From: Balneolaceae bacterium
GTDB lineage: Bacteria; Bacteroidota; Rhodothermia; Balneolales; Balneolaceae
Length of the DNA: 33,555 nucleotides
Assembly (NCBI GenBank): GCA_007134085.1
Contig: SLLL01000150.1
Location: 1 to 33,555, forward strand
Direction: 5' to 3'
This document shows, piece after piece, positions 4,538 to 13,507 of the stretch. Made by a program: the position numbers and the translations under genes. Numbering within the stretch: the stretch's first letter is position 1; every line of letters begins with the position of its first letter. The notes under the pieces were generated by a model that saw only the letters and a program-made list of their open reading frames with translations, did no database searches and had not been told where the DNA came from.

Positions 4538-5311
4538 TTAGTCTGTTTGTTCTCTGATAAAGCGGACCGGAATACCGGCCTCCGCCATACTCTTTTTCAA
4601 TGTTTCAATTTCTATTTCTCTGAAGTGAAAAATACTTGCGGCAAGCACTGCATCGGCTTTTCCCAGAAGAACGGCATCTCTGCAATGTTCCATAGTGCCG
4701 GCTCCGCCACTCGCAATTACGGGAATAGTTACGTGATTGTTTACTTCATTCAGAAGATCCAGGTCGAAACCGGCTTTTGTACCGTCGCGGTCCATGCTTG
4801 TGAGAAGTATTTCCCCCGCACCAAGCTCTTCTGTTTTCTTAATCCACTCAAGCGCGTTGATACCGGTTGGTTCTGAACCGCCTTTTACAAAAACCTCCCA
4901 ATGGCCGTTCGTCTTTTTTGCATCAACAGCTGCCACCACTGCCTGCGAGCCAAATGCAACAGATGCACGTGTAATCAAATCGGGGTCACGAACAATAGCG
5001 CTGTTCAGAGAAACCTTGTCGGCCCCGGCTTTCAGAATCTCCTCAATCTCATCGACCGATCGGATGCCACCCCCAACAGTAAACGGTATACTTATCTCTC
5101 TCGCAATATCTTCCACAAGTTTTACAAGAGTTCTTCGTTTTTCTTTTGTAGCGGTTATGTCGAGAAAAACAAGTTCGTCGGCACCCTCGGTAGTGTAGCG
5201 CCGGGCAAGTTCAACGGGATCGCCGGCATCGCGAAGGCCGATAAAGTTTACCCCTTTAACGGTTCGGCCGTCTTTAATATCGAGGCATGGTATAATTCGT
5301 TTTGTGAGCAT
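4538..5311 (-). CDS. hisF: Imidazole glycerol phosphate synthase, cyclase subunit (HisF)
   Basis: The cyclase half of IGP synthase. It uses ammonia delivered by HisH to convert PRFAR to imidazole glycerol phosphate and AICAR. The 257 residues form a complete beta/alpha barrel. Asp11 (in [10 protein letters not shown]) and Asp130 (in VVAAVDAKK) are the known catalytic pair, and the phosphate-binding glycines are in FTVGGGIRS and [10 protein letters not shown]. It is followed 8 nt later by hisE. Upstream the cluster is interrupted by the oppositely oriented serpin, so hisF-hisE must either use a promoter in 5312-5430 or depend on transcription reading through antisense to the serpin. Confidence 0.97.
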
Positions 5312-5430
5312 CTTTTTGAGAGCTCATAAGATAAAAAGAATATTCACAAAGAAAGTATATTGTTTCTAAGTAACTGCATTAAGAATTAGTAAAAAATCAG
5401 AAAGAAAAAATGAGGAATGAGGTGACAGGA

Positions 5431-6690
5431 ATGAGAGTACTCACACATATAAAACCCCTACTGTTTATACTCGCGGCCATATTAGTAAGCGGTTGCAATA
5501 ACGGTATTGTAGGCCCCGGCCTGCCAAAAGGGGAGTTGCCCCGTGAGTTAACACCTCAAGAAAAGATACTCATTGAGGCCGACAGCAAATTCAGTTACGA
5601 GATCTTTAAAAGAACGGTTGCTTTTGATAGTGACGAAGAGAACCTGATGATATCTCCGTTGAGCATATCTATGGCACTGGCGATGACTCTGAATGGAGCA
5701 AAAGAAGATACGTTCGATGAGATGCGCGAGGCTCTCTATTTAACCGATCTTGATATTGACGACATCAACAACGCCTTCAAATCGCTGACGGAACTGTTAA
5801 CCACAGCAGACCGCAGCGTTACGCTGAAAATTGCCAACTCCATTTGGTACAGAGAAGGTTTGCCGGTCGAGGAAGAGTTTCTTAGCTCCGTGCGAGATTT
5901 CTTCGATGCCCGTATTGAAGGGCTCGATTTTAATGATCCCGCAGCGCCTGATATTATAAACGCATGGGTTGAAGAAAATACGGAAGGCTTGATAAAGGAG
6001 ATCATCGAAGAAATTGAGCCGCATATGGTTATGTATTTAATCAATGCGCTCTATTTCAAGGGTGACTGGCTGCGGCCATTCGATATCGACGATACCCGGC
6101 GGGCAAATTTTCATCTTGAATCCGGCCGAACCACTCAGGTAGATATGATGCATCAGGAAGGGAAATTTGCGCTCTATTTTTCGGAAGATGTGCAGATGAT
6201 TGAAATTCCGTACGGCGACAGCCTCTTTTCGATGACTGTTCTGATGCCGGCAGATCCCGACATGCCAATCACTCAGTTTGTCGATGAAAAACTATCTGCC
6301 GCAAACCTCAACTCATGGCGGTCAAATATGTTTGTGGATTCGAGGGATATCACACTGCAGCTTCCAAAATTTGAATTTGAGTACGAACTCGAATACAACG
6401 ACATCCTTAAAGCAATGGGAATCAGAAAAGCGTTTGATGAGTGGGAAGCCAACCTTAAGGGAATTGCTGATGTATCACCACAGAACCTTTTCATCGACGA
6501 AGTAAAGCACAAAACATTTATCAGAATTGATGAAGAGGGAACCGAAGCTGCCGCTGTTACAAGTATTGGGATTGGTATAACGTCCATGCCACCGCAAATG
6601 ATTGTTGACAGGCCTTTTGTCTTTATCATCCACGAACGGGAAAGTGGCACAAACCTCTTTATGGGCAAAGTGATGAATCCTGCTCTGTAG
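5431..6690 (+). CDS. Lipoprotein serpin, inhibitory-type hinge, within the his cluster
   Basis: A 419-residue serpin (serine protease inhibitor fold) with a lipoprotein signal ending LVSGC. I prefer ATG 5431, behind GAGGTGACAGGA, over ATG 5410, which adds seven residues. Serpin signatures are present: NLMISPLSISMALAMTLNGA, LINALYFKGDW, and the C-terminal DRPFVFIIHE..SGTNLFMGKVMNP. The reactive loop has the inhibitory hinge EEGTEAAAVT. By alignment with alpha-1-antitrypsin the scissile bond is Thr384-Ser385, followed by MPP, which suggests a protease with a small or beta-branched P1 preference (inference). It is probably tethered on the envelope facing the periplasm or outside. It lies on the strand opposite hisA and hisF, with 11 nt to the hisA stop. 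Confidence 0.93.
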   Translation: MRVLTHIKPLLFILAAILVSGCNNGIVGPGLPKGELPRELTPQEKILIEADSKFSYEIFKRTVAFDSDEENLMISPLSISMALAMTLNGAKEDTFDEMREALYLTDLDIDDINNAFKSLTELLTTADRSVTLKIANSIWYREGLPVEEEFLSSVRDFFDARIEGLDFNDPAAPDIINAWVEENTEGLIKEIIEEIEPHMVMYLINALYFKGDWLRPFDIDDTRRANFHLESGRTTQVDMMHQEGKFALYFSEDVQMIEIPYGDSLFSMTVLMPADPDMPITQFVDEKLSAANLNSWRSNMFVDSRDITLQLPKFEFEYELEYNDILKAMGIRKAFDEWEANLKGIADVSPQNLFIDEVKHKTFIRIDEEGTEAAAVTSIGIGITSMPPQMIVDRPFVFIIHERESGTNLFMGKVMNPAL

Positions 6691-6701: not shown

Positions 6702-7418
6702 TTAGCCATTTAGTTGTTTCATTTCGTCAAGGCGTATGTGCCCTTCATAATACGCCTTGCCTACAACTACTCCATACATTCCGATATTCTGAACATTCAC
6801 AAGATCACTGAGTTTTGAAACCCCACCTGATGCAATCCAGTTGAGCGATGGAAACCGAGTTTGCAAATCGCGGTACATCTCAATATTTGGCCCGCTGAGC
6901 ATCCCGTCTCTCGCAATATCAGTACTTAGCACGGTTTTGAGCCCGGCATCAATCATGGGGTTTAGAAATTCTTCTATCGGTTTGTCGGAAGTTTCCAGCC
7001 AGCCGCCAAATGCGAGTTTCCCATCTTTCAGATCGAGCCCAAGTATCATCTTGTCGGGGTGATCGGTAATTGCCTGCAGCCACTCCCCGGGCTTTTTCAC
7101 AACCATGGATGAGCAGATTACACCATTTAAACCCGCATCCAGAAGAGTGTCAATATCCTTGCGCGAACGCACCCCACCCCCTGTTTGCACCGAAAGGCCA
7201 ATCTCATTGATGATACTTCTGATGATTGGCAGATTTTCGAAACGTCCGCTTTTTGCACCATTCAGGTCCACCACGTGGATATGGGAAAATCCCGCTGCTT
7301 TAAATTTTGCAGCTTCATCAAGTGCATCGTGATTATAGATTGTTTTTTTTGCATAATCGCCTTTTTGCAGGCGAACTACCTGCCCGTCAAGAAGGTCAAT
7401 AGCGGGGATGATATTCAT
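6702..7418 (-). CDS. hisA: ProFAR isomerase (HisA)
   Basis: Isomerises the aminoaldose ProFAR to the aminoketose PRFAR by an Amadori rearrangement, feeding HisF-HisH. The 238 residues are a beta/alpha barrel homologous to HisF. Asp8 (MNIIPAIDLLDG) and Asp129 (ILGLDLKDG) are the catalytic acid/base pair. QTGGGVRS and WIASGGVS carry the two phosphate-binding loops. A 91-nt gap separates it from hisH upstream. Its 3' end faces the serpin gene, which breaks the hisA-hisF adjacency usual in bacteria. Confidence 0.96.
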   Translation of the reverse strand: MNIIPAIDLLDGQVVRLQKGDYAKKTIYNHDALDEAAKFKAAGFSHIHVVDLNGAKSGRFENLPIIRSIINEIGLSVQTGGGVRSRKDIDTLLDAGLNGVICSSMVVKKPGEWLQAITDHPDKMILGLDLKDGKLAFGGWLETSDKPIEEFLNPMIDAGLKTVLSTDIARDGMLSGPNIEMYRDLQTRFPSLNWIASGGVSKLSDLVNVQNIGMYGVVVGKAYYEGHIRLDEMKQLNG

Positions 7419-7509
7419 AAAAAGTGATTGCTTTTAGCCTGATTTTTCAGTGGAATCAAAAATACAAAAACCGCACTCCAAAACCTGATGAAAGCAGCTC
7501 GGAAGAGAA

Positions 7510-8133
7510 CTAAGAAGTGCCCGATTGTTTTATCTCTTCGGGTTTATAGACAAGATTAAGAAAGTTTTGAAGAAGTAGTGAGCCAACCTGGCCTGATTTT
7601 TCAGGATGAAATTGAACTCCCATAAAATTGTCTTTGGCAACTACGGCAGCAAAATCTTTGATATAGTTGCAGGAGGCAAGAGTATGTTCATTAGTGGGGG
7701 CGTAGTAGCCGTGTACATAGTACAGAAATTGCTTGTTGCCAATACCTGTAATAAGCGGATGATTTTGAAGGGGGTTAAATTGATTCCATCCCATGTGAGG
7801 GACTTTGGCTTTTGATGAATCAAATTTTTTAAGCCGGCCGGGAATAATACCCAAGGTTTTACAATCGCCCTCTTCTGATGACTCAAACAGAAGCTGCATA
7901 CCAAGACAGATACCCAGAACTGGTTTTGTGGTATTCTTAATCCAAACATCCAGGTCTTTCGCGCGCAGGTCGTCCATAGCGGCGGCGGCATGCCCAACCC
8001 CGGGAAAGATGATGGCATCAGCTTTTTCGAGCTCTTCTGTATTGTCGGATACAAAAAATTTTGCACCCAACCGCGACAATGCGTTTTCTACGGATGCCAG
8101 GTTACCAGCTTTGTATTTAATGATTCCTATCAT
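7510..8133 (-). CDS. hisH: Imidazole glycerol phosphate synthase, glutaminase subunit (HisH)
   Basis: The glutamine amidotransferase half of IGP synthase. It hydrolyses glutamine and channels ammonia to HisF. The 207-residue class I glutaminase has the nucleophile Cys76 in GICLGMQLL and the His176/Glu178 pair in VQFHPEKSG. It begins MIGIIKYKAGNLASVENAL, the usual first strand and oxyanion region (IIFPGVGHAAAAM). It lies 64 nt downstream of hisB, so it is probably in the same transcript. Confidence 0.96.
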   Translation of the reverse strand: MIGIIKYKAGNLASVENALSRLGAKFFVSDNTEELEKADAIIFPGVGHAAAAMDDLRAKDLDVWIKNTTKPVLGICLGMQLLFESSEEGDCKTLGIIPGRLKKFDSSKAKVPHMGWNQFNPLQNHPLITGIGNKQFLYYVHGYYAPTNEHTLASCNYIKDFAAVVAKDNFMGVQFHPEKSGQVGSLLLQNFLNLVYKPEEIKQSGTS

Positions 8134-8197
8134 TGGTATTGAGTAACAAACTTACATTGAATTGAGAGCTTTGATTCAAACCCTTCGTAATCAATAC

Positions 8198-9076
8198 TCA
8201 AATTGTTCCTTTGGTTGAGGGGAGAATGCCCATAATTCGTTCATTTCGGCTTATGGAAAAGCGTAGAGCTTTTGCAAAGCCTTTGAACACTGCTTCAATA
8301 ACGTGGTGTTCATTTTTTCCATCGGCTTTAACATGGAGTGTAGCTTTGGCGTTCATTGCCAGCGTATAAAAAAAGTGTTCCAGCATTTCTGTAGGAAAGT
8401 CGCCAACATATTCACGCTTCAGGGGCACCTCCCACACAAGGTAAGGCCTGTCTGAAAGATCTATTGCTACGGTAGCCTGTGCTTCATCCATCGGCAATAC
8501 AAAGCCATAGCGTTGAATACCGGCTTTATTGTCAGAAATTGCCTGCCGGATAGCCTGTCCAAGTGCAATTGCTGTGTCTTCAATGGTGTGGTGCTCGTCA
8601 ACTTCAAGGTCGCCGTCGCAAGTAAGTTCAATATCGATCAACCCGTGGCGTGCTATCTGGTCGAGCATGTGGCCGAAGAAATGGATGCCGGTTTTTATGG
8701 AGCTTTTTCCTGTTCCATCAAGATTAATGGATACCTCAATCTTTGTCTCTTTTGTATCTCTTTTGATGCGAGCTTTACGAACCGGGAATAGAATATGCTT
8801 TGCGAGCTCGCGCCAGTTTTTTCCAGATGCAATTGTTACTCCGTCAGAAATCAACTCAAAGCTGCTGTTTTTTGTGATGGTGCCATCCACCGGGCCATCT
8901 GTGCTTGCCAATTCATCCCCGTCAAGCAATTGCTTTTGCGCGGAGGATAGATTTGCAGCTTCAAACTGAAATGTATAACCGTGCTGAGCCAAATAATTCA
9001 ACGCGAAAAGTGTGAATGGTGGGAGTGAATCGGGGCTGCCTTCGGAAAAGGCACTTTTTTCGATACGGATATTCAT
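8198..9076 (-). CDS. hisB: Imidazoleglycerol-phosphate dehydratase (HisB) with novel N-terminal extension
   Basis: Dehydrates imidazole glycerol phosphate to imidazole acetol phosphate. Residues about 101-283 are a complete dehydratase domain: the two manganese-binding motifs are EHHTIED (His162, His163, Glu166) and NEHHVIEAVFK (His257, His258, Glu261), with His136 in FFGHMLDQ. The first ~100 residues are not the HAD-type histidinol-phosphatase of bifunctional HisB: they are too short and lack a DxDGT motif. I do not recognise them. The start is well supported because its ATG overlaps the hisC stop as ATGA, and there is no better internal start near the domain edge. The extension looks like an alpha/beta segment of unknown role. 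Confidence 0.95.
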   Translation of the reverse strand: MNIRIEKSAFSEGSPDSLPPFTLFALNYLAQHGYTFQFEAANLSSAQKQLLDGDELASTDGPVDGTITKNSSFELISDGVTIASGKNWRELAKHILFPVRKARIKRDTKETKIEVSINLDGTGKSSIKTGIHFFGHMLDQIARHGLIDIELTCDGDLEVDEHHTIEDTAIALGQAIRQAISDNKAGIQRYGFVLPMDEAQATVAIDLSDRPYLVWEVPLKREYVGDFPTEMLEHFFYTLAMNAKATLHVKADGKNEHHVIEAVFKGFAKALRFSISRNERIMGILPSTKGTI

Positions 9077-10131
9077 GAAAGAACCTCTTTGAGTGTTTTT
9101 AAGAAACGGATGTTTTCATCGGGCATGCCAATGGTTACACGCAGGCAATTTTCACAGTGAGGTTCATTGCCTCTGTAGCGCACAATCACCCCTTTCTCAG
9201 CCAGCTTTCGATAGATCTCTTCGGCATTTTTTATTCTGAAAAGCAGAAAGTTTGCATCCGATGGGAAAACCTTTTCAACGTCTGCAGCGTGGCTCAGTTG
9301 TTCGGCAACATAACCGCGCTCCTCAAGAATTTTCTCCAAGTTGAACTTCATAAGTTCCATGTTTTCAAATGCCTTTATGGCAACATCAGCAGTAAGTTTG
9401 TTGATGTTGTATGGGGCTTTTACTTTAAGCATGTAACTTATAATCTCGGGGTTGGCTATGGCAATACCAAGACGAATACCTGCAAGCCCAAATGATTTCG
9501 AAAACGTTTGCAGAACAACCAGATTCGGGTACTGCTGAACCAGTTCAGCCATCGACTCCTGCCTGCTGAAATCAATGTAAGCCTCATCCACAACAACAAT
9601 TCCTGGAAAAGCCGCAATAAGTTTCAGCATGTCTGTCTGCTTAAGGCTGTTTGATGTAGGATTGTTGGGCGAACACAAAAACAGAAGCTTGGTGTTTGAA
9701 TCTGCTGCCGCAAGAACCTCAGCGGTTCGAAGCTGAAATTTTTCGTTGAGCAACACCTCTTTTACAGCCACATCATTGACGGAGGCAGAAACCATGTACA
9801 TGCCATAGGTTGGCGGGGTGGTGATGATGGCATCTTTTCCTGGGTTGCAGAAAATTCTCATCAAAAGGTCTATCGGTTCATCACTGCCCACCCCAAGAAA
9901 GATATTCTCGAAATCTACGCCCCGCCACTCTGCAATTTTTTTCCGGAGTTCGTTTTGAACCGGGCTGGGATACCGATGAAGATGCAGGGAATTTCGAACC
10001 GGCGCACCGAGCCCATTTTCATTGGCATCAAGGAGCAGCCCTTTATCAAAATCGTCGCGGGCACTGCGGTAAGGTTTCAGGTTTTTGATGTTTTCCCGAA
10101 CCAGGGATGAGATTGTGTCGAAATTCGGCAT
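9073..10131 (-). CDS. hisC: Histidinol-phosphate aminotransferase (HisC)
   Basis: A PLP-dependent class I/II aminotransferase that converts imidazole acetol phosphate and glutamate to histidinol phosphate and 2-oxoglutarate. It is 352 residues long, typical for HisC. Landmarks are LLLDANENG near the N terminus, FLGVGSDEPIDLL, CSPNNPT, VVVDEAYIDF, and the PLP lysine Lys212 in TFSKSFGLAGIRLG, with the C-terminal arginine in CLRVTIG. Its stop overlaps the hisB start by 4 nt, indicating translational coupling. hisD ends about 50 nt upstream. Confidence 0.96.
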   Translation of the reverse strand: MPNFDTISSLVRENIKNLKPYRSARDDFDKGLLLDANENGLGAPVRNSLHLHRYPSPVQNELRKKIAEWRGVDFENIFLGVGSDEPIDLLMRIFCNPGKDAIITTPPTYGMYMVSASVNDVAVKEVLLNEKFQLRTAEVLAAADSNTKLLFLCSPNNPTSNSLKQTDMLKLIAAFPGIVVVDEAYIDFSRQESMAELVQQYPNLVVLQTFSKSFGLAGIRLGIAIANPEIISYMLKVKAPYNINKLTADVAIKAFENMELMKFNLEKILEERGYVAEQLSHAADVEKVFPSDANFLLFRIKNAEEIYRKLAEKGVIVRYRGNEPHCENCLRVTIGMPDENIRFLKTLKEVLS

Positions 10132-10182
10132 GTATGTTTAATTGATGCGAATCAGGTTAGTGGTTTTGAACTGATAAGCAGC

Positions 10183-11472
10183 TCAGTTCTCTAATTTTTT
10201 TAAGCGTATGGATACCGCTTGTTTATGGGCTTCAAGGCCTTCAATCTCAGCGAGAGTTTCTACAGTTGGGCCAAGATTTTTAATGCCGGTTTTACTCACT
10301 TTTTGCATGGTAATAAATTTCTGAAAACTTTGAAGAGATACGCCACTGTACATCCGAGCATAGCCATATGTTGGCAGGGTATGGTTGGTGCCTGAGGCGT
10401 AATCGCCCATGCTTTCCGGTGTCCACTCGCCAATAAATACGGAGCCGGCATTTTCTACGTTTTCTGCCAGCTTTTCGGCATTTTTGGTGTTGATGATAAG
10501 GTGCTCCGGCGCGTATAAGTTTGAAAATTCCATCGCCTGTTTTGTGGATTCTACAATCACGGTAAAGCTATTTTTCAGGGCGGCTGAAGCAAACTCTTTT
10601 CGGGGCAGCTTTTCAAGCTGTTGCGTTACGGCTTGATTGATGGAGTCGAGATCTGTCTTTTCTGTAACCACCAGCACAACCTGGCTGTCGGCGCCGTGTT
10701 CAGCCTGTGAAAGCAAATCGGCTGCTATAAATTCGGGATCAGCAAATTCATCAGCTATAACCAGAACTTCAGACGGGCCCGCGGGCATATCAATGGAGGC
10801 CATTGCTTCACTGTTTTGCAGAATCATTTTTGCCGCTGTTACATATTGATTGCCCGGGCCAAAGAGTTTATCCACTTTTGGGATGGTTTCAGTGCCAAAG
10901 GCCATTCCCGCAATAGCCTGTGCGCCGCCTGCTTTTACCACTTTGGCAGCACCAATTTTTTTTGCGATGTACATTATGCTTTCCGGAATGTTGCCATCAT
11001 TACCCGGAGGAGTGGCAATGACAATCGTTTTGCAGCCGGCAACCAATGCAGGCACACCAAGCATCATAGTGGTGGATGGCAGCGGAGCCGTGCCGCCGGG
11101 GATGTACAAACCAACACGCTCAATCGGTTTCGCAACACGGCTGCAAATAACCCCCTTCATGGTTTGCACTCTAAGGTTAGCAATGAACTGCTCCCGGTGA
11201 AACTTAAAGATGTTGCTTAAGGCGCGGTCAATTGCCTCTTTGATTGTAGGGGGAAGCGCAACTTCAACATCTGCCGGGTTAATGGTTAGCGGATCAGGAT
11301 CAAACCCATCGAATTTTTTTGTGTATTTCCTGATTGCATCATCTCCGTTTTTTTCAACATCATCAAGAATAGGCTGTACCTGGTTAAAAACAGAGCTGAA
11401 ATCCATCTTTGGCCGTTTACAGAGAGCTTCTATTTGCGATGGAGTCAGGTTTTTGTAGTCATAAGTTTTCAT
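10183..11472 (-). CDS. hisD: Histidinol dehydrogenase (HisD)
   Basis: Catalyses the last two steps of histidine synthesis, oxidising histidinol to histidine with two NAD. From the start chosen it is 429 residues, the usual family length. Zinc ligands include Gln256 and His259 in LLSQAEHGADSQ and the histidine of EGLEAHKQA near the C terminus. The substrate loop is GDYASGTNHTLPT, and the nucleotide region includes PGGTAPLPSTTMM. The frame stays open upstream to 11523, but that adds a low-complexity translation of the GAGTC-type palindrome, so MKTYDYKNLT at 11472 is taken as the start. That start codon lies at the base of palindrome copy B. Confidence 0.96.
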   Translation of the reverse strand: MKTYDYKNLTPSQIEALCKRPKMDFSSVFNQVQPILDDVEKNGDDAIRKYTKKFDGFDPDPLTINPADVEVALPPTIKEAIDRALSNIFKFHREQFIANLRVQTMKGVICSRVAKPIERVGLYIPGGTAPLPSTTMMLGVPALVAGCKTIVIATPPGNDGNIPESIMYIAKKIGAAKVVKAGGAQAIAGMAFGTETIPKVDKLFGPGNQYVTAAKMILQNSEAMASIDMPAGPSEVLVIADEFADPEFIAADLLSQAEHGADSQVVLVVTEKTDLDSINQAVTQQLEKLPRKEFASAALKNSFTVIVESTKQAMEFSNLYAPEHLIINTKNAEKLAENVENAGSVFIGEWTPESMGDYASGTNHTLPTYGYARMYSGVSLQSFQKFITMQKVSKTGIKNLGPTVETLAEIEGLEAHKQAVSIRLKKLEN

Positions 11473-11537
11473 AGTCATGAGTCTTGAGTCTTGAGTCTCG
11501 AGGTGTGATTGCTCACGACTCAAGACTCACGACTCAT
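11471..11537. repeat. REP-like palindrome, copy B (between hisG and hisD)
   Basis: The left arm (about 11474-11502) and right arm (11512-11537) pair over about 22 bp around a short loop. The right arm holds the reverse complement of GTGAGTCTTGAGTCGTGAG (11512-11530), identical to copy A. The left arm shows tandem GAGTCTT heptamers. The element fills the 73-nt hisG-hisD gap and abuts the hisD start codon, so in mRNA it would form a long hairpin right before hisD. It could reduce hisD initiation or stabilise the upstream hisG message (inference). Confidence 0.75.
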
Positions 11538-11545
11538 ATCTAAAT

Positions 11546-12424
11546 TCATACAATCATCGATTCTATTGGCAGCATTACAATTCCCGTAGCACCTGCTTCT
11601 TTTAGTTGTTCCATCACATCCCAGAAAGTGGAAAGGGGTATCACAGTGTGGATGGCAACCATGCCGTTATCAGCAAGAGGCATTACAGTTGGGCTTTTCA
11701 GCGAGGGAATAATTTCTTTGATTTTTGGCACCGATTCCTGCGGAGCATTCATCATGATGTACCTGCTTTCAGCGGCTTTTTTGTATCCTTCAATCCGCTG
11801 CAGAATTTTTTCAATCAGGTGTTTTTTGCCATCAGAAAGCGGCTTGTTGGTTTGAATGAGTTGTGTTTCTGAATCAAAAATGTTCACCAGCTCTTCAAGC
11901 CCGTTTGCTTTTAGTGTGCCGCCGGTTGAGACGAGGTCAGAAATAGCATCGGCAATTTCAAGGCGGGGGGCTATTTCAACTGAGCCGGAAAGTGTGATGA
12001 TGTCCACATCAACCCCTTGAGATTCGAAATATTTCCGAGTTAAAACGGGGTAACTTGTGGCAACTTTTTTACCGGCAAAATCGGCTGGTTTATTGATGTT
12101 ACCATTTTTAGGCACTGCAAGCGATAACCTGCAAACACCATATCCCAGCCCGCGCAGAACGGTTACATCCGCTTCATCTTCAGCTACAGTGTTTGCCCCA
12201 ACAAAGCCAAGATCGCAAACGCCATCTTCAACATATTCAGGAATATCGTCATCGCGAATTAGCAGAAGTTCAACATCAAAATTGAGGCATTTTATGAGCA
12301 GGCTGCGTTTGTAGTCGTCAAATTTCAGCCCGATACCATCAAGCAGGTTCAGGGTTTTATCAGTCAGGCGGCCACTTTTTTGAACCGCTATTCGTAAAGA
12401 GGTAGTAGAATCGAGTGTTCTCAT
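11546..12424 (-). CDS. hisG: ATP phosphoribosyltransferase, long form (HisG)
   Basis: First and committed step of histidine synthesis: condenses ATP and PRPP to phosphoribosyl-ATP. At 292 residues it is the long form with a C-terminal ACT-like regulatory domain (about residues 215-292, ending GATGIVMLPIESMIV), so it should be histidine-inhibited and need no HisZ. The catalytic part has RIAVQKSGRL, DLGFVGANTV, KVATSYPVLTRKYF and the PRPP loop DLVSTGGTLKANGL. It heads the his cluster. A His-rich candidate leader peptide and a C-rich stretch lie just upstream. No strong Shine-Dalgarno site precedes the ATG. Confidence 0.96.
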   Translation of the reverse strand: MRTLDSTTSLRIAVQKSGRLTDKTLNLLDGIGLKFDDYKRSLLIKCLNFDVELLLIRDDDIPEYVEDGVCDLGFVGANTVAEDEADVTVLRGLGYGVCRLSLAVPKNGNINKPADFAGKKVATSYPVLTRKYFESQGVDVDIITLSGSVEIAPRLEIADAISDLVSTGGTLKANGLEELVNIFDSETQLIQTNKPLSDGKKHLIEKILQRIEGYKKAAESRYIMMNAPQESVPKIKEIIPSLKSPTVMPLADNGMVAIHTVIPLSTFWDVMEQLKEAGATGIVMLPIESMIV

Positions 12425-12497
12425 CGTAAAAAATAGGTATTAAAATTGTAAGTAAAGAGTGTGGAATGGCAATGTGGCGGGGGAAGGTGCAAAAATT
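12425..12497 (-). promoter_or_regulatory. Candidate attenuation/rut-like leader segment before hisG
   Basis: On the transcribed strand the 40 nt from 12490 to 12451 contain 19 C and only 3 G, a C-rich, G-poor bias typical of Rho loading sites. A run of six T (12433-12428) follows but no GC-rich hairpin precedes it, so a classical intrinsic terminator is not evident. Alternative pairings are visible: UUGCAC (about 12493-12488) can pair with GUGCAA at the leader start (12572-12567) or GUGCA at its end, and AUGGC inside the leader can pair with GCCAU upstream or downstream (12470-12466). The role in regulation is inferred. Confidence 0.45.
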
Positions 12498-12572
12498 TTA
12501 ATGCACAAAATAGCCATGATTGCTATGATGGCAGTGGGGATGATGGGAAGTATGTGTATCTCTGTATTGCAC
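12498..12572 (-). CDS. Candidate histidine-rich leader peptide of the his operon
   Basis: A GTG-initiated 24-codon frame ends in TAA 73 nt before the hisG start. Eight of its 24 residues are histidine (positions 7, 10, 11, 13, 15, 16, 19, 24), with the core HHPHCHH. An in-frame TAA sits four codons before the GTG, so the frame is bounded. No strong Shine-Dalgarno site is visible. A His-codon cluster directly ahead of the first gene of histidine synthesis is the hallmark of ribosome-mediated attenuation, as in enterobacterial hisL, though this peptide is not a sequence homologue. The chance alternative is a biased ATG/CAT-rich stretch; the frame and place argue against it. Confidence 0.65.
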   Translation of the reverse strand: MQYRDTHTSHHPHCHHSNHGYFVH

Positions 12573-12610
12573 GGATGAAATTTATGAATTCAGTAAGGTA
12601 AATACCAATC

Positions 12611-12622
12611 GTTTGTGCAAAC
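12611..12622. promoter_or_regulatory. Palindrome GTTTG-TG-CAAAC upstream of the his leader
   Basis: A perfect 5-bp inverted repeat with a 2-nt spacer lies about 40 bp upstream of the leader peptide and downstream of the DUF4382 terminator, the interval where the his promoter must lie. On the minus strand it includes TTGCAC, a possible -35-like hexamer. It may be an operator or part of the promoter. Confidence 0.3.
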
Positions 12623-12646
12623 AGTTTGGGCAGCAGAAATAATTCC

Positions 12647-12679
12647 AAAAAAAGCCGGCACTGTTTAGAGTACCGGCTT
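12647..12679 (-). terminator. Intrinsic terminator of the DUF4382 gene
   Basis: On the minus strand AAGCCGG and CCGGCTT form a perfect 7-bp stem, extendable by a G-T pair, followed directly by a run of T (seven A on the plus strand at 12647-12653, two of them in the stem). It lies about 30 nt past the DUF4382 stop and separates that gene from the his operon, so hisG needs its own promoter between about 12573 and 12646. Confidence 0.85.
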
Positions 12680-12706
12680 GTAACAATAAATATGCATCAT
12701 TGGGCA

Positions 12707-13507
12707 CTAATCAAGCGAAACAGTTCCAATGTTGGTGGTATCTGTGGAGCTTACTTCAACATTAGAGATTACCGTCATACTGTTTTCGCCGTTCATTGGC
12801 ACAACGGATACCTGGTACGAGCCAGGGAGAAGGCCGATCATAAGAAAATCTCCGTTAGCTTCTGCACGGGTTCCCGCAAGGGTGTCGCCATCGGCAATAG
12901 CATAAACCCATGGCTCAATACCTGCCGGCTCAATAGAACCTTCAATAGCACCAGATTGCTCAAGGCGTGCAGTGCTAATTACGGGCCTTAGATTATACCT
13001 TCCTGAATTACCAGCCCTTACGATTGATCTGGAAGCATCGAAATCGAGAAGAAGAGTGTACATTTCACCACCCTCAATATCAGCGTTAATTTGAAGCTTT
13101 AAGCCTGATTGCTGGGCACTTGGAGTGTTAAGTGCTTGGGTTTCGCCATCTATTACAACTTCATTATTATCACCAAGTATTAGCCGTAGCTGGCTGTATC
13201 GCCCGGGTTCAAGGTCAATTTCACCAAGTACTTCAAACCTTCCGTTAGTAAGTTGCAGAAGGTCAACAATTACTGGTTCTGTTGGGATATCTATCCAACC
13301 GCTTTCTCCTTCCCCTGCATCACCACTTCGATGTATTCTTACAGCCTGGATGTCAATATATACTGCTTCGAAGTCTCCCGGTGCATCTGTCAGCACTACT
13401 CTCAAAGTTCCATATTCGGAATCTGTATCACCCGAAGTATTATCGCTGCAGCTCACGAAAACCAGAGTGCTAAGTGCAGCTAAATGTAAAAATTGTAAGA
13501 CTCTCAT
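12707..13507 (-). CDS. DUF4382 domain lipoprotein with carboxypeptidase-regulatory-like domain
   Basis: A 266-residue lipoprotein with signal ending FVSC. Residues about 33-180 match the DUF4382 pattern: GTLRVVLTDAPGDFEAVYIDIQAVRIHR, IDLLQL-like VDLLQLTNG, LEPGRYSQLRLIL, and LLLDFDASRSIV. The C-terminal 75 residues (GAIEGSIEPAG to TVSLD) look like a small carboxypeptidase regulatory-like beta-sandwich (GDFLMIGLLPGSYQVSVVP). DUF4382 proteins are cell-surface or periplasmic lipoproteins of unknown function. The gene has its own terminator and is divergent from the small thiamine-binding-like gene across a 106-bp gap. It is monocistronic and unlikely to be functionally linked to his. Confidence 0.85.
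   Translation of the reverse strand: MRVLQFLHLAALSTLVFVSCSDNTSGDTDSEYGTLRVVLTDAPGDFEAVYIDIQAVRIHRSGDAGEGESGWIDIPTEPVIVDLLQLTNGRFEVLGEIDLEPGRYSQLRLILGDNNEVVIDGETQALNTPSAQQSGLKLQINADIEGGEMYTLLLDFDASRSIVRAGNSGRYNLRPVISTARLEQSGAIEGSIEPAGIEPWVYAIADGDTLAGTRAEANGDFLMIGLLPGSYQVSVVPMNGENSMTVISNVEVSSTDTTNIGTVSLD

Follow-up and report, generated by a model that had tools for sequence, protein, structure and literature searches.

A histidine leader peptide before hisG in Balneolaceae, with a probable leaderless start and a candidate Rho-dependent output

Results

The his locus and its short upstream frame

The DNA analysed here, which we call the window, is a stretch of 33,555 nt from a Balneolaceae bacterium, an organism that we take to be salt-loving. 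It carries a run of histidine biosynthesis genes that opens with hisG and is preceded by a very short reading frame (Table 1). Read from 12572 to 12498, this frame translates as VQYRDTHTSHHPHCHHSNHGYFVH, followed by a stop codon, and 73 nt lie between its stop and the hisG ATG at 12424. An earlier note had described it from the sequence alone, and the coordinates, strand, GTG start, stop, 8 His in 24 residues, core HHPHCHH and distance to hisG given there all proved correct on re-reading. The gene upstream of the leader ends in its own intrinsic terminator, the only terminator-like site within 12400-12760, and the his transcript therefore needs a promoter between that terminator and hisG. Within 12300-12800, Rfam 15 (4,227 families) gave two unrelated sub-threshold matches, with no T-box, riboswitch or His leader, and the loci of 10 relatives gave no match at gathering score.

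Two further elements mark the layout of the operon. hisF lies apart from the hisG-hisA run, at 4538-5311 on the same strand as hisG, and a serpin gene (PF00079) on the opposite strand, at 5410-6690 (+), separates it from hisA. A REP-like palindromic repeat occupies 11462-11545, between hisG and hisD, and has 36 matches genome-wide, on several contigs.

Table 1. Coordinates of the his leader region and operon in the window
Feature	Position	Strand	Remarks
hisD, hisC, hisB, hisH, hisA, presumed co-regulated	6702..11466	(-)	NCBIfam matches
hisG, first gene of the his run	11546..12424	(-)	TIGR00070 and TIGR03455 above cut-off
C-rich, G-poor stretch, candidate Rho loading region	12426..12503	(-)	C minus G = 21 in 78 nt
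P3, predicted helix across the leader stop	12475..12516	(-)	UGGC/GCCA outer, GUGCA/UGCAC inner; in the minimum-energy fold
Histidine leader peptide ORF	12498..12572	(-)	GTG start, 24 aa, 8 His
P2, predicted hairpin inside the ORF	12513..12532	(-)	GCCAU/AUGGC; weak in the window, -4.0 kcal/mol
TAAATTTC, -7 box, TAnnTTTG type (5 of 6)	12577..12584	(-)	Ends 4 nt before the leader GTG
TTGG, candidate -33 element	12605..12608	(-)	Read by eye; TTGG similarly placed in many relatives
Intrinsic terminator of the upstream gene (12707-13507)	12652..12679	(-)	11-pair stem and T tail

Histidine codons are kept in frame across close relatives

Frames this rich in histidine were confined to hisG leaders in a chance scan of 433,555 bases, both strands, made up of the window and 20 stretches of 20 kb from a congener: with a cut-off of at least 6 His and at least 25% His in ORFs of 12-45 aa, 2 of 7,280 short ORFs passed, namely the window leader and the hisG leader of the congener. 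The earlier note had made its reading depend on His enrichment in close relatives and on conservation of the frame, and both were found. Among the best 80 loci of a HisG scan, the closest matches were Balneolaceae and Rhodohalobacter, and 48 of the closest 51 (L032-L082) had at least 220 nt upstream of hisG and could be judged; L047 (63 nt), L060 (136 nt) and L080 (no upstream DNA) were left out. All 48 carry a short His-rich ORF (4-13 His) that stops 56-111 nt before hisG, and the in-frame end of such an ORF is visible in the 136 nt of L060. These relatives are interdependent: the HisG of L032 is 98% identical to that of the window, and L065, L068, L069 and L081 are near copies.

Farther out, the leader becomes patchy. 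Among the 22 further Balneolales loci within the best 80 (L083-L104), 7 have a clear His leader (L086, L091, L094, L098, L100, L101 and L102), two are doubtful (L089, with no standard start, and L096, a long ORF) and 13 have none, including L092 and L104, which are recorded as Balneolaceae. A genome assigned to the window's own family (G031, locus L174) also lacks a His leader before hisG. In that locus a Trp-repressor-family gene (PF01371, E 1.6e-23; L174:353-607, +) stands directly before hisG, and frames that resemble it by eye precede hisG in several of L105-L111. Since HisR of Gram-positives belongs to the Trp-repressor family, according to the part of PMC9413887 cited here, one regulator may have been swapped for the other.

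For quantitative comparisons we used a set of 55 leaders, composed of the window and 54 loci with a usable short frame (the 48 close ones and 6 of the further 7; the frame of L091 failed the length rule). CAY codons average 8.31 per leader in frame, as against 0.67 and 0.60 in the other two frames, and the true frame is the richest in all 55. Among 15 leaders of equal length from the window's clade, differences per codon position are 0.34, 0.38 and 0.43, and CAT and CAC are switched in 174 of 625 His-His comparisons; the residues other than His and the spacing of the His vary between relatives. The frame is thus kept while the peptide diverges. Together, the in-frame excess of CAY and the pattern of divergence argue for selection for histidine codons, not for C-rich sequence alone, and the idea that the His-richness is a by-product of C-rich RNA is ruled out by the frame test. 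The ORF is almost certainly a histidine leader peptide.

A promoter box next to the start codon

Across the 55 leaders, the best box of the TAnnTTTG type lies 4 nt from the start in 27 and 5 nt in 15, or 42 together. At gaps of 3-6 nt, a box that matches in 5 or more of 6 positions precedes 36 of 55 leaders and 11 of 217 control genes, and one with at least 4 matches precedes 51 of 55 and 44 of 217; in these comparisons the control genes, taken from long ORFs, were given their first ATG or GTG as start, which is wrong for some of them, and the leader starts were chosen by box score at any gap of 0-24, apart from 6 set by hand (L033, L037, L045, L049, L057 and L073). With starts chosen blind to the box, as the most upstream, the best box still lies at a gap of 4-5 in 38 of 54 leaders (L070, which has no ATG or GTG start, was left out), and 42 of the 54 have a single ATG or GTG candidate. 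When starts are optimised for the box in both sets, the best box has at least 5 matches at a gap of 3-6 in 32 of 55 leaders vs 333 of 7,517 background short ORFs. In four leaders (L076-L079) the box lies farther from the start, at 9-11 nt. Outside Balneolales, 24 of 31 Bacteroidota his leaders have a box with 5 or more matches, at gaps of 7-28.

In mapped promoters of Flavobacterium psychrophilum, as reported in the portion of PMC9723704 cited here, the -7 box spans -12 to -5. With a gap of 4, the same geometry makes +1 coincide with the start codon's first base, at about 12572; this is the spacing expected of a leaderless leader ORF. Judged from this box-to-start spacing, and by analogy with promoters of another class, the his mRNA is probably leaderless. 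Leaderless GUG starts are weak in E. coli but not in all bacteria, according to the section of the review PMC9031893 used here. A sigma-70-like match also occurs in the trailer, between the leader stop and hisG, at 12472-12445.

Terminators are missing from his leaders and present in trp leaders of the same order

As an intrinsic terminator we counted a hairpin of -8 kcal/mol or lower followed by a U-tract. None was found between the leader and hisG in the window. In the Balneolales set, 3 of 55 his leaders have one (L050, L059 and L086), the same rate as in mononucleotide shuffles (6 of 165). By the same measure, one is present in all 15 trp leaders tested from the order (shuffles 6 of 45) and in 31 of the 35 his leaders from other Bacteroidota, that is, 22 of 25 (shuffles 2 of 75) and 9 of 10 more. 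The four that fail (L114, L121, L136 and L149) come from two families (f29 and f13), so his leaders that lack a terminator may extend beyond Balneolales. The non-Balneolales test set derives from 58 loci of the phylum, a part of those found, and a putative His-rich short ORF precedes hisG in 37 of the 58; L144, which is doubtful, and L152, a near copy of L151, were left out. The earlier note named no well-described his leader in this lineage; at the level of the phylum, his leaders are common and mostly of the classical, terminator-bearing kind.

The trp leaders are short ORFs with WWW and precede trpE in 25 of 30 loci (L208-L237). The 15 that were tested were drawn from 19 plus-strand loci; 10 more, in 11 minus-strand loci, have a hairpin and T-run by eye. 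The genome of the window itself has a trp leader with a terminator (L233).

At the ilvB loci (L178-L201, with L189 from the window's genome), at least 11 of 24 have an Ile/Leu/Val-rich ORF. These ORFs end about 180-460 nt before the matched domain, and most are followed by a conserved hairpin (CCAGAGGUYA ... UGACCUCUGG) with no U-tract, which makes them a candidate for a second terminator-free leader design in the order. By eye, the ilv leaders combine this strong hairpin with no excess of C over G; loss of the classical terminator need not, therefore, mean Rho. Homoserine dehydrogenase loci were left out, the matched domain lying far from the gene start.

A C-rich, G-poor trailer

The excess of C over G in the window's stretch (Table 1) is reached by 0.05% of background windows. 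From leader stop to hisG, the trailer averages 0.30 C and 0.06 G in the window's clade (0.32 and 0.05 in the window), as against 0.18 and 0.15 in the upstream regions of other genes. A maximum C minus G of at least 15 in 78 nt occurs in 47 of 55 leaders; among three controls, it occurs in 0 of 20 his leaders of other Bacteroidota, in 3 of 13 hisG regions of Balneolales loci with no leader ORF and in 9 of 138 genes with free upstream DNA, the controls being 150 nt long and the leaders 131-220 nt, which gives a slight advantage to the longer ones. The C-richness of the leaders follows in part from their CAY codons. A rho gene scored above cut-off in all 21 genomes of the order that were searched. 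The two elements that a Rho-dependent attenuator calls for, a C-rich, G-poor, unstructured region after the leader and a rho gene, are thus both found.

A second, shorter Rho-like protein is encoded beside the normal Rho in 20 of the 21 genomes. In the window's own genome (L176, at G000:C239:233-1333) its product has the Rho RNA-binding and ATPase domains, and the N-terminal Rho region is unmatched.

Pairing between the last codons and the trailer

Consensus structures from RNAalifold on MAFFT alignments of the two big clades were weak, so we compared the pairing of each leader with its own partner against that with swapped partners. For P3, in which the last codons pair with the trailer, 64 of 5,000 permutations were as good in the window's clade (18 leaders) and 49 of 5,000 in the Balneola/Gracilimonas clade (13 leaders); in 5 Fodinibius leaders the figure was 530 of 5,000, which is not significant. 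We regard the reality of the P3 pairing, as predicted from these folds, as moderately supported. When a ribosome is placed on the early His codons in the model, 8.1 P3 pairs are expected vs 4.5 with shuffled trailers, and own pairs exceed shuffled ones in 48 of 55 leaders. A ribosome modelled at the stop removes P3 and raises trailer exposure from 0.65 to 0.81, a rise that is partly built in, masked bases being counted as unpaired. Because the 5' arm of P3 belongs to the ORF, P3 would stay folded when a ribosome stalls upstream of it; this is the wrong sign for a terminator and the right sign for a shield of the trailer.

In the window, the P2 hairpin shares bases with the outer part of P3, with no terminator to oppose, and comparable hairpins fold inside the ORFs of relatives. 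A pairing of the 5' end with the trailer, P1, was rejected as a general feature (3,404 of 5,000 permutations as good among 18 leaders of the window's clade), even though a P1 of six pairs is possible in the window itself. In the Balneola/Gracilimonas clade, where the partner is the 5'-terminal start codon, P1 is supported (8 of 5,000 permutations as good, 13 leaders), while 4 of the 13 (L058, L059, L063 and L075) do no better than shuffled sequences.

Discussion

We describe a short His-rich ORF before hisG whose role as a histidine-sensing leader peptide is strongly supported by comparative sequence evidence: its conserved frame, its His codons, its place and its own conserved promoter. The output of this leader is a separate matter. 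The absence of a terminator and a composition resembling a Rho site occur together, which is our main, correlative argument for Rho; Rho-dependent termination fits best, and on this basis we lean towards it.

The scheme that we consider modestly probable is a histidine-responsive leader-peptide attenuator of a variant type, built from a leaderless start, P3 and Rho. Transcription of the operon from a sigma-A promoter would begin at the leader GUG, give or take about a base, and ribosomes would load on the bare 5' end of the mRNA. When charged tRNA-His is scarce, a ribosome would stall at the early or middle His codons, P3 would stay folded and part of the C-rich RNA would be covered; Rho could then not load, and RNA polymerase would continue into hisG. 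When histidine is plentiful, translation would run through to the stop codon; the ribosomes would open P3 and then depart, and the C-rich, G-poor trailer would become accessible. Rho would load there and end transcription before or early in hisG. Four parts of this scheme are inferred: the exact mRNA start, ribosome stalling, the involvement of Rho and which way the switch works. More tentatively, it is tempting to hypothesize that in the leaderless his switch of Balneolaceae a single RNA stretch, consisting of CAY codons and a nearly G-free trailer, could serve as both histidine sensor and Rho site, with stalled ribosomes masking the Rho site, P3 taking the place of the antiterminator and, in Balneola/Gracilimonas, P1 closing the start after a round of translation.

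Control of translation or of mRNA stability is an unlikely alternative, in which the leader ribosome would alter access to the hisG start or shield the message from nucleases, with no termination involved. Such control has no need of a terminator, and the leaderless poly-Cys leaders of mycobacteria are attenuators of downstream translation, according to the passage of a review cited here (PMC9031893). The translational form sits poorly with our folds, in which no helix covers the hisG start and the start is not hidden, its median unpaired probability being 0.61 vs 0.54 with the upstream part shuffled. Also quite unlikely is classical attenuation of the hisL type through a weak or unusual intrinsic terminator, such as the inner part of P3 (UGUGC/GCACA) with the short U-run of some relatives. 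A short hairpin does lie near a U-run in L035, L044 and L082, and elsewhere in the phylum his leaders follow the classical plan, but terminators in the Balneolales set are no more frequent than in shuffled sequences, the window has none, and P3 would respond to stalling with the wrong sign. That the ORF encodes a small functional peptide or is non-regulatory, with hisG read from a promoter in the trailer, is very improbable: His-rich peptides can bind metals and the trailer does hold the sigma-70-like match, but the ORF keeps its place before hisG in every judged close locus, its other residues and His spacing vary, further amino-acid operons in the order are preceded by leaders enriched in the cognate residue, and a sigma-70-like promoter is not the type of this phylum as described in the source cited for its promoters (PMC7366714).

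The usual picture of leader-peptide attenuation includes a 5' untranslated stretch and a terminator hairpin. Like hisL of Escherichia coli and Salmonella, the Balneolaceae leader ORF is short, abounds in His codons and immediately precedes hisG, with ribosome stalling as its presumed sensor, and its His codons are clustered and conserved in frame. It differs in that no intrinsic terminator was found and its start codon apparently stands at the 5' end of the mRNA; its His codons are spread over the ORF, whereas those of hisL form one run, and beyond His the two peptides are unlike. The earlier note had likened the locus to attenuation in enterobacteria: the His-sensing leader peptide stands, and the likeness appears to stop at the terminator and the 5' end. 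The Balneolaceae leader would work like known leader-peptide attenuators, minus the terminator of hisL and an Rfam match. The his leaders of other Bacteroidota belong to the same phylum and also place a His-rich short ORF before the same gene; they differ in their hairpins with U-tracts, their more distant boxes and their lack of C over G skew.

Leader-peptide his attenuators are established in gamma-proteobacteria and predicted in some Firmicutes, as far as the cited parts of PMC9413887 and PMC2965389 extend, and for F. psychrophilum the cited portion of PMC9723704 gives clues for leader-peptide attenuation before amino-acid operons. Another parallel comes from mycobacterial cysteine operons, whose leaders were noted in 2005 to be without terminators, with Rho suggested (text cited from PMC1262725); later work on their leaderless poly-Cys ORFs is cited in PMC9031893. 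In the extracts cited, these ORFs share with ours the leaderless start (probable in ours), the cognate codons, the lack of a noted terminator hairpin and the suggestion of Rho, and they differ in amino acid and phylum. In the tnaC-type Rho-dependent leader of E. coli, too, ribosome position would decide the access of Rho beyond the leader stop. tnaC is reported to sense free Trp through an arrest peptide, whereas the tandem cognate codons of the Balneolaceae leader point to stalling by starvation, and its use of Rho is proposed. The literature searched, which lacked most subscription journals, yielded no paper on the Balneolaceae his leader. Lopatovskaya 2010 reportedly may treat attenuators of Bacteroidetes.

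Leaderless mRNAs are rare in the phylum, at 5.5% of mRNAs in F. psychrophilum (PMC9723704) and, for 5' UTRs under 10 nt, about 3.7% in Bacteroides thetaiotaomicron (PMC7366714), in the parts of these studies cited. Screens based on terminators would miss regulators of the kind proposed here. The his leaders of the whole family seem to do without the 5' untranslated stretch and the hairpin, while the hairpin is retained in trp leaders across the order, and the two together offer a natural comparison for what replaces the terminator in a terminator-free attenuator.
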